This document shows, piece after piece, positions 38,238 through 40,718 of a stretch of 42,792 bases of DNA; position 1 is the stretch's first letter, and each line of letters opens with the position of its first letter. Made by a program: the position numbers and the translations under genes. Source of the DNA: a virus. The notes under the pieces were generated by a model. That model did not search any database, was not told the DNA's origin, and saw nothing but the letters and a program-made list of their open reading frames with translations. The stretch is taken from positions 1-42,792 of IMG/VR virus record IMGVR_UViG_3300032326_001810, one strand, 5' to 3'.

Positions 38238-39558
38238 CTATAAATTTTATAGCGATAAAAACAACAAAAAAAACGCAATCGTTGGTGGATTATTTAAATT
38301 TGATAATACAGAAAAGCTACCATTTAAAGAAAAAATTATAGAAAACTTAAATAAAAGAATTAATATTTATCCCATACTTTCTAGTAAAATTGTAGAAAGT
38401 AAGATAAAAAATGACTACCCATATTATGTTACGGATAAAAATTTTAATATTAATAATCACGTTTTTGAATATAATGTTTTTTCTCAAGAAGAATTTAATA
38501 CTCTAGTTAAAAAAATATGGATCAAAGAAATACAATTAGATAAACCTCTTTGGGAGTATCATATTATAAATTATTCAAAAAATACATACGTACTTAGAAG
38601 ATGTCATCACGCTATGGGTGATGGCACTCAGCTTTCAGAGTCAGCTGCTTTTTCGGATTATTTTAAAGATAGAAAAAAAATCAACAATTTAAATACCGTT
38701 TCAAAAAAAAGATCCTACTTTAATAAATCAATTAAAATTTTAAAAATGTATTATTTGTTTTTAAAAGGATTTATTACAAAAAATAATAAACAAACAAAAA
38801 TTAAACAATTTAAAAGAGAAAATATATACAGAGGTGAGTGGAGAAATAAAAAAGAGTATTCATTAGATTTTAGTTTTGTTAAATTTAATTTAAATGAAAT
38901 TGAATCGTATCTCAAAGATAAATCTATATCTACTCTTGAGTTTTCTTTTTTATTAGAAACATTGTGCTATCAAGGAATATTGGGTGAAAAAGTTGTAGAA
39001 AAAAAAGATCTTATTTCTTTAATCCCAAGAAGTTATGATGACATTAAGCACTATGGAAATGAAATTATTACGTTAATGGTAGATGTGCCAACCTCAGAAG
39101 TTTCTATTGATAAAGCAATAATGCGTATTAAACAATCAATTGGTAATCAAACACATATGCTAAACACAAGTGCCCACAAAGACTACGCAAAGGCTTTTAG
39201 GACCAATCCAAATATATCTTCAGCACAAAAAGGTTTTAGATATGCAAACATGTGCGACTGGAACGGTAAAAAAAAGATACCAAAATACAAAAAAGATTTC
39301 TTTCCTATAGCAACATCTACTACTTATTTTAATGTTGATATTTTATCTAAAACTACTGTTCATGGAAAGAAAATAGAAGAATCCTACGGTATTAGTATGC
39401 CGATAAGTGTTCCTGGATCAATAGGTGTAACACTTCATTTTAGAAAACAAAATGATTACCTTTATGTAGGTATTACTTCTTTTAAAGAAATTTTTAGTGC
39501 AGACAAAGTAAAAGAAAGTTTAATCAATTCATTCAATAGGATAAAATCTCTTGCATGA
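38200..39558 (+). CDS. WS/DGAT-like (condensation-type) acyltransferase
   Basis: A 452-residue protein of the CoA-dependent acyltransferase superfamily. The catalytic HHxxxDG is intact: HHAMGDG at 136-142. Other family marks are LDKPLWEYHII before it, ISLIPRSYDD..YGNEI near the middle and YGISMPISVPGSIGVTLHF toward the C-terminus, as in bacterial wax ester synthase/diacylglycerol acyltransferases. Such enzymes join an acyl group from CoA to an alcohol or amine. The substrate here is unknown. Start is ambiguous among ATGs at 38200, 38206 and slightly later. Overlaps the P450 gene (ATGA), so the two are co-translated. Confidence 0.75.
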   Translation: MCMKKTMQMNFVDYKFYSDKNNKKNAIVGGLFKFDNTEKLPFKEKIIENLNKRINIYPILSSKIVESKIKNDYPYYVTDKNFNINNHVFEYNVFSQEEFNTLVKKIWIKEIQLDKPLWEYHIINYSKNTYVLRRCHHAMGDGTQLSESAAFSDYFKDRKKINNLNTVSKKRSYFNKSIKILKMYYLFLKGFITKNNKQTKIKQFKRENIYRGEWRNKKEYSLDFSFVKFNLNEIESYLKDKSISTLEFSFLLETLCYQGILGEKVVEKKDLISLIPRSYDDIKHYGNEIITLMVDVPTSEVSIDKAIMRIKQSIGNQTHMLNTSAHKDYAKAFRTNPNISSAQKGFRYANMCDWNGKKKIPKYKKDFFPIATSTTYFNVDILSKTTVHGKKIEESYGISMPISVPGSIGVTLHFRKQNDYLYVGITSFKEIFSADKVKESLINSFNRIKSLA

Positions 39559-40718
39559 ATGCTATAGAACTAGATTTAAGAGATCAAGAAAATATTCTTG
39601 AAACAATAAGAAAGCAAAATCCGGTACTAAAAATTTCGGAAAACTATTGGCTTATAACCGGTTATGATCAGGTTAAAAGTTTTATAAGAAATCCTTATTT
39701 AGTTAGGCAAATGAAGGAATCTTATCAAGAAAACTATATTCATAGCCTTTTAAATTTAGACGGAGAAGAACATGCAAAGTATAGAAAAATATTAAACCCA
39801 TTTTTTTCTAATTTTTCTGTAGATCAAATTGAAAATAATATTGAAGATAACGTTAAAAAAACTTTTAAATCATTAAAAAACAAAAGTCAATTTGACCTAG
39901 TTTCGGATATTGCCTTTCCTATTCCATTTTACTCTATATGTGAAATATTAGGGGTAGAAATTATTCCCGAAGAAGATCATTCATTTATAGCAAACTGGAC
40001 AAATGATGCCATGCTAGTTCTTAATAATTATCTTTCAAAAGAAGACTATCAAAAACATTCTGAAGGAACAGAAAAGGTTTTTACCTACCTTGTAAACATG
40101 TTATATGGCACTAAGTATAAGAAAAAAGAAACTGGCGTTTTTAAATATTTAAAAAGCTATACAGATGGTGGAGATAGTCTTAGTAATGAAGAAATAATAT
40201 CTCTTTGTATAATGTTGTTTATAGGTGGGTTTGAAACAAATCTAAACACTTTTACATCCTTAGCATATGAGTTTGTAAAAGACAAAGACATGGCAAACAA
40301 TGTGCTTTCCAGCATAGAGGAAAAAAATACGATAGAAGAACTATTTAGGCACTCTTCTAGTTTAAATTTTATTACAAGAAGAGTTTCTAGAGATATCAAG
40401 ATCGATGACTTTAGCCTTGCTAAAAATGAGTACGTTATATTACATATAGCATCAGCAAACAGAGATTCTTTAATGTTTAAAAACGCTCATAAAATTATTC
40501 CATCAAGAAATAATTCAAATATGCATCTAGCTTTTGGGGGCGGCCCTCACTACTGCTTAGGGGCAGGTCTTTCTAGGTTTCAGGTAAAGGTAATTGTAAA
40601 AGAATTTATTAAAAATATGAATAGCAGATGTTATTTTTCGTCCCTTCCAACTAAGAATAAAAGTACTTCCATGAATGGGTATAGGGAAATGATTTTAAAT
40701 GATTACTATATTCAATAA
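39555..40718 (+). CDS. Cytochrome P450
   Basis: A complete 387-residue haem mono-oxygenase of bacterial class-I type. Marks in order: DGEEHAKYRKIL (C-helix), I-helix GGFETN with the acid-alcohol pair E227-T228, K-helix ExxR in EELFR, SANRDS, and haem loop FGGGPHYCLGAG with the thiolate Cys334. All key residues are present, so an active enzyme is likely. No ferredoxin or reductase is in the window, so host redox partners would be needed. It overlaps the acyltransferase gene by four bases and probably acts on the same product. P450s are rare in phages. Confidence 0.95.
   Translation: MNAIELDLRDQENILETIRKQNPVLKISENYWLITGYDQVKSFIRNPYLVRQMKESYQENYIHSLLNLDGEEHAKYRKILNPFFSNFSVDQIENNIEDNVKKTFKSLKNKSQFDLVSDIAFPIPFYSICEILGVEIIPEEDHSFIANWTNDAMLVLNNYLSKEDYQKHSEGTEKVFTYLVNMLYGTKYKKKETGVFKYLKSYTDGGDSLSNEEIISLCIMLFIGGFETNLNTFTSLAYEFVKDKDMANNVLSSIEEKNTIEELFRHSSSLNFITRRVSRDIKIDDFSLAKNEYVILHIASANRDSLMFKNAHKIIPSRNNSNMHLAFGGGPHYCLGAGLSRFQVKVIVKEFIKNMNSRCYFSSLPTKNKSTSMNGYREMILNDYYIQ

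Follow-up and report, generated by a model that had tools for sequence, protein, structure and literature searches.

Previous work has described cytochrome P450 genes in giant viruses, in Ranid herpesvirus 3 and in Mycobacterium phage Adler (cited in PMC9405906), and the same source reported that Bacillus phage 0305phi8-36 encodes a flavodoxin able to drive a bacterial P450, no P450 redox partner having been found in viral genomes before it. We analysed a 42,792-bp fragment of viral DNA (the whole stretch, hereafter the window) in which an earlier note had recorded a complete cytochrome P450 in a phage, in an operon with an acyltransferase. Like the giant-virus, herpesvirus and Adler enzymes as PMC9405906 presents them, the window P450 is carried by a viral genome and would be expected to rely on host electron donors, whereas here the gene belongs to a three-gene operon with an acyltransferase found in five phage lineages. 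Phage P450s have so far been reported as isolated cases, and we found no report of this operon in the open-licence literature on phage P450s; the present locus is a conserved operon in five lineages, and other P450 groups accompany it in similar phages.

The open reading frame at 39555-40718 (+) encodes a complete P450 of 387 aa, as had been recorded, and matched PF00067 in Pfam with 87.4 bits (cut-off 22.8, E=1.1e-24) and 435 distinct PDB sequences at E<=1e-3, the best of which was 5ofq_A (E=1.8e-42). The residues listed in the earlier note were all intact: the haem-thiolate motif FxxGxxxCxG reads FGGGPHYCLG with Cys334 as ligand (codon 40554-40556, +; FGxGxHxC), the K-helix ExxR is E262-R265 (40338-40349, +), the I-helix acid-alcohol pair is E227-T228 in GGFETN (40233-40238, +), and the C-helix HxxxR is H73 and R77 (39771-39785, +). 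In an alignment with six cellular P450s these residues were invariant except E227, which was absent from one of the six, and all of them, with GFETN as a whole, were invariant across the five phage lineages. Moreover, omega (dN/dS) of the window P450 was 0.17 against L136 and 0.08 against G002, and the gene is under purifying selection.

The nearest solved structures in the profile comparison included CYP109-type enzymes and CYP124, a hydroxylase of methyl-branched lipids; 5ofq, 4rm4 and 5l90 are CYP109-type and related bacterial P450s. The window P450 shares fold family and catalytic residues with the CYP109-type and related enzymes, which are its best PDB matches, but the best cellular relatives in GTDB genomes were no more than 29% identical to it among the matches listed, and in a 60-row tree the phage P450s formed one clade of their own (100/100) with a long stem and no near cellular row in a non-exhaustive cellular sample. 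By convention a P450 joins a CYP family such as CYP109 when it is more than about 40% identical to a member; against that level the best cellular P450 among the GTDB matches listed stands at 29%. The phylogeny proposed in the earlier note produced a well-defined phage clade, and the donor clade that it was meant to reveal did not appear, no close cellular donor being found in the GTDB genomes (among the matches listed) or in plasmids. Such a clade would supply P450s distant from cellular ones.

The P450 is the last of three genes on the plus strand, in the order 94-aa protein, WS/DGAT-type O-acyltransferase, P450, so the operon proposed before was confirmed and extended by one gene. Gene 1 (37953-38237, +; GTG start, 22% G+C) encodes a small protein without an assigned fold, for which profile searches gave no Pfam match and no PDB match and the AlphaFold model was unusable (pLDDT 41); a homologue occupies the corresponding position in each of the five lineages, with 21-68% identity to the window protein. 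Gene 2 (38218-39558, +) encodes 446 aa from a start chosen to fit the relatives (the longest open reading frame begins at 38200), and its start is overlapped by the 3' end of the 94-aa frame. The acyltransferase stop and the start of gene 3, the P450, overlap by 4 bases (ATGA). All three genes have 22-29% G+C, below most of the window.

The WS/DGAT acyltransferases (PF03007, TIGR02946; PDB 7nxg and 6chj) use acyl-CoA and act on small acceptors, and the phage enzyme has in common with them the HHxxxDG motif and a profile match over the full length. The N-terminal part matched PF03007 with 44.8 bits (cut-off 23.6, E=1.8e-11), the profile matched that of the plant enzyme WSD 7nxg (E=3.7e-12), and hhalign aligned it with cellular WS/DGATs over columns 5-453 (probability 98.1, E=6.9e-14). 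The catalytic motif, HHAMGDG, lies at 38605-38625 (+); HH and D are invariant in the five lineages, and the last residue is Gly in four of them and Ser in L130 (HHCLGDS). However, with 61.6 bits the enzyme fell below the 309.95-bit cut-off of the NCBIfam subfamily TIGR02946, and the acyltransferases of all five lineages were far under the NCBIfam WS/DGAT cut-off. Because it passes in Pfam and matches both 7nxg and the full-length cellular enzymes, yet lies so far below the NCBIfam cut-off, we classify it from its profile matches as a distant member of the WS/DGAT superfamily, outside TIGR02946. The AlphaFold model was too poor for a fold search (pLDDT 51).

The window is phage DNA by its gene content: it carries a UvsX/RecA-like recombinase, an ATP-dependent-protease-like ATPase, a large terminase, a portal, a major capsid protein and tail-fibre proteins (PHROGs matches), in agreement with the earlier note. 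The large myophages Bacillus vB_BauM_KLEB27-3, Moorella MTATph1 and Acinetobacter ME3 have distant relatives of its capsid (25-44%) and terminase (30-38%), but gave no match to the P450 or the acyltransferase. A tblastn search of INPHARED with the window P450 matched no phage apart from the mislabelled MT835505 (L020; 19% identity), which we do not count as a related phage: judged by its translations, the 21 kb around the match read as part of a high-G+C bacterial chromosome with metabolic open reading frames, and GenBank holds it as a 'Bacteriophage sp.' record marked UNVERIFIED. We also observed that the large terminase of the window is split by a frame change (13781-14452 and 14496-15632, between GMRSG and GKSDVARG), either a programmed frameshift or a real break; G002 has the same split and the G003 terminase is one open frame. 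Two long open reading frames in different frames, 7247-9751 and 9660-10898, overlap by about 90 bases and are possibly one gene with a frame change.

IMG/VR scans recovered the locus in 12 further viral contigs, 3 of them cut off at the contig end, which makes 13 with the window. They fall into five lineages of large tailed phages, namely the window with G001 and G002; L136; L030; L031 and L047 (with partial L133, L134 and L140); and L130, L131 and L132. As the scans use short patterns, this count (window included) is to be read as at least five. In all five the order small open reading frame, acyltransferase, P450 is kept with the P450 last, the gene ends overlap or nearly touch, and the slot is the same: a 2OG oxygenase gene and a DUF6065 gene precede the unit, and a conserved gene coding for about 258 aa follows it. 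Identities to the window proteins in the other four lineages were 66, 44, 37 and 35% for the P450 (range 35-67%) and 57, 33, 29 and 27% for the acyltransferase, and the DUF6065 proteins were roughly 57-83% identical between lineages. Therefore, since the identities of the two enzymes are lower than those of DUF6065, the unit has long been present in these phages and diverges more rapidly than this neighbouring gene. The DUF6065 gene of the window (36725-37435, PF19541 E=1.5e-39) adjoins the unit, as its counterparts do in the other lineages.

Two IMG/VR contigs of 69,149 and 143,466 bp (the latter G002), both with the locus, were 99.99% identical in their overlap. The contig of 205,907 bp (L130) has matching ends of 127 bp, and in G004, which overlaps it, the P450 and the ferredoxin stand where a 205,907-bp circle would place them; therefore the L130 contig is in effect complete. 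Phage genes flank the P450 on both sides, in synteny across the five lineages, which is the location looked for in an auxiliary metabolic gene, and by location it classifies as one, with putative expression and effect on the host.

Positions 1-32,862 of the window match the start of G002 at about 98%, and a block at 37826-40749, which coincides with the operon and marks a recombination unit, is about 99% identical to G002 between flanks of 67-93%. The left edge of the block is contained in a small open reading frame at 37727-37963 (+), and the right edge falls at the start of another at 40745-40981 (+). Reading the block as a recently swapped cassette was weakened: the block hardly exceeds the backbone in similarity (about 98% for the latter), so that the exchanged part may be the unit or may be its flanks. 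The P450, the acyltransferase and the downstream gene share one five-taxon topology, with a weak inner branch for the P450 (69/62), from which the tree of the upstream 2OG gene differs. In addition, open reading frames of 75-90 aa with the pattern G-x-D-x-x-x-x-D occur at 37496-37963, 40745-40981, L034:5308-5538 and L034:8843-9115, and such frames recur next to oxidative-enzyme genes in different phages.

To our knowledge, the WhiB family is confined to actinobacteria and their phages, and a search across 14 control genomes matched only Corynebacterium. A WhiB protein was found in the complete relative of 205,907 bp (E=4.8e-19), which suggests an actinobacterial host; the match is in one lineage, the other records being fragments, and because of this we infer the host of the window by extension. 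The host of these phages is probably an actinobacterium.

A Fer4_15 ferredoxin is encoded in G003 and G004, and G002 stops before the corresponding region. Like the 0305phi8-36 flavodoxin (PMC9405906), the G003 ferredoxin is a phage-borne electron carrier potentially useful to a P450, but the carrier here is of another type and shares its genome with a phage P450, which lies about 100 kb away in the complete relative. Its PDB neighbours were small ferredoxins and a ferredoxin-fused CYP51. As a dedicated partner of the P450 it was weakened as a candidate, since a scan of viral contigs turned up 589 relatives or more; tblastn found none in INPHARED. Fer2 and Flavodoxin_1 gave no match, and no ferredoxin reductase was present among the families listed for G002 and part of G003. 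The G003 ferredoxin lies in the complete relative at L150:7284-8217 (G003 147281-148217, minus strand), between two small cysteine-containing open reading frames.

From these sequence comparisons we favour, at slightly less than even confidence, the reading that this is a resident phage operon: the P450 would hydroxylate an acceptor, which the acyltransferase would then esterify, and a ferredoxin of host or phage would supply the electrons. The P450 would receive electrons from host ferredoxin and reductase (one relative also encoding a ferredoxin) and would hydroxylate, during infection, an acceptor, most likely a lipid-like compound or some other small, hydrophobic molecule; the acyltransferase would then use host acyl-CoA to convert the new hydroxyl to an ester, the small protein would act as an accessory or binding partner, and the product may alter the envelope of the host, or one of its storage or signalling lipids, to the benefit of the phage. 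This explanation draws on the occurrence of the unit in one slot in five lineages, the intact residues, the full-length WS/DGAT match of the acyltransferase with HH and D retained, the touching genes, the purifying selection, the shared topology, the CYP109-type and CYP124 neighbours of the P450 and the WhiB of the complete relative, and a lipid-like acceptor is favoured because the acyltransferase is of the WS/DGAT family. At this divergence the substrate is beyond reading from sequence, and we infer hydroxylation and esterification from family chemistry. The Ser in the L130 motif, the sub-cut-off acyltransferases, the weak P450 inner branch, a small protein without an assignable fold, the lack of a ferredoxin reductase among the families listed and the presence of WhiB in one lineage count against this explanation. 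The suggestion in the earlier note that the P450 tailors a small molecule or lipid and is not cargo is therefore reasonable in view of the conserved touching genes, the selection and the WS/DGAT superfamily, but the substrate is a predicted one and a virion-protein target is a less probable rival. Further, and more doubtfully, we consider that a large-phage lineage, probably actinobacterial, may have kept its own lipid or small-molecule pathway and diversified it into new P450 families, with the phage ferredoxin as a possible partner, and that the pathway would not be a recent loan from a host. Phage use of P450 chemistry becomes directly testable here, with two enzymes, known reaction types and a predicted order, hydroxylation and then esterification.

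It is rather unlikely, but the best placed of the alternatives, that the substrate of the operon is a soluble small molecule and no lipid: a natural product, made by the phage or by the host, would be hydroxylated and acylated, for instance as an antibiotic against competitors, or a host compound would be inactivated. Natural-product tailoring is common among bacterial P450s of this group, judging by the NCBIfam and PDB neighbours, and a tryptophan-halogenase-like gene lies near the P450 of a similar phage, L034; however, no polyketide, peptide or terpene synthase was among the families listed for G002 and part of G003.

We regard as unlikely a target in a phage structural protein, with the P450 oxidising side chains of tail or fibre proteins and the acyltransferase acylating them alongside the 2OG-Fe(II) oxygenases, so that adsorption or stability is changed. 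Upstream of the unit lie tail-fibre genes, three genes for 2OG-Fe(II) oxygenases and a repetitive (FFPP)n tract, in whose place L031 has collagen-like GPT repeats, but WS/DGAT enzymes are known to act on small acceptors with acyl-CoA, and the link between the cassette and the 2OG genes is one of position, their trees being different. The three oxygenase genes occupy 34773-36724 and come after the open reading frame with the (FFPP)n tract (33577-34017), where L031 has its GPT repeats (L031:4867-5685); a prolyl-hydroxylase role of these oxygenases on fibre proteins is possible.

Slightly less probable again is the reading that the two enzymes use separate substrates and share an operon for co-expression alone, as the P450s of L034, L042 and L049, which have no acyltransferase of this type alongside, might suggest; in the clade of the window, however, the enzymes are always paired in the same order and their trees agree. 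Host DNA joined by misassembly, or a host gene captured recently and now decaying, is very improbable despite the low G+C of the cassette, since the locus occurs in 13 contigs of five lineages and has no cellular sister among the rows sampled, intact residues and purifying selection, which contradicts the one outcome that the earlier note had named as refuting it.

Separate P450 groups, distinct from the clade of the window, occur in similar phages. The second viral group (L034:9779-11026, L042:9785-11008, L044:1340-2563, L045:7944-9137 and L049:9779-11014) has no window-type acyltransferase beside the P450, and its apparent join with the clade of the window was set aside on a long-branch warning. 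L042 and L044 fall, with G002 and G003, into one broad phage group (neighbours up to 92% identical) and carry their P450 at a different place; the halogenase-like gene of L034 matched PF04820 (E=2.6e-102). Downstream of the unit, G002 has a glutathione-peroxidase-like gene (44543-45163), for which G003 has a 71% relative. A third viral P450 group (L037:2372-6046 and L041:9045-12854) has a TauD-type dioxygenase nearby, and the L037 P450 adjoins a gene with weak sulfotransferase similarity.
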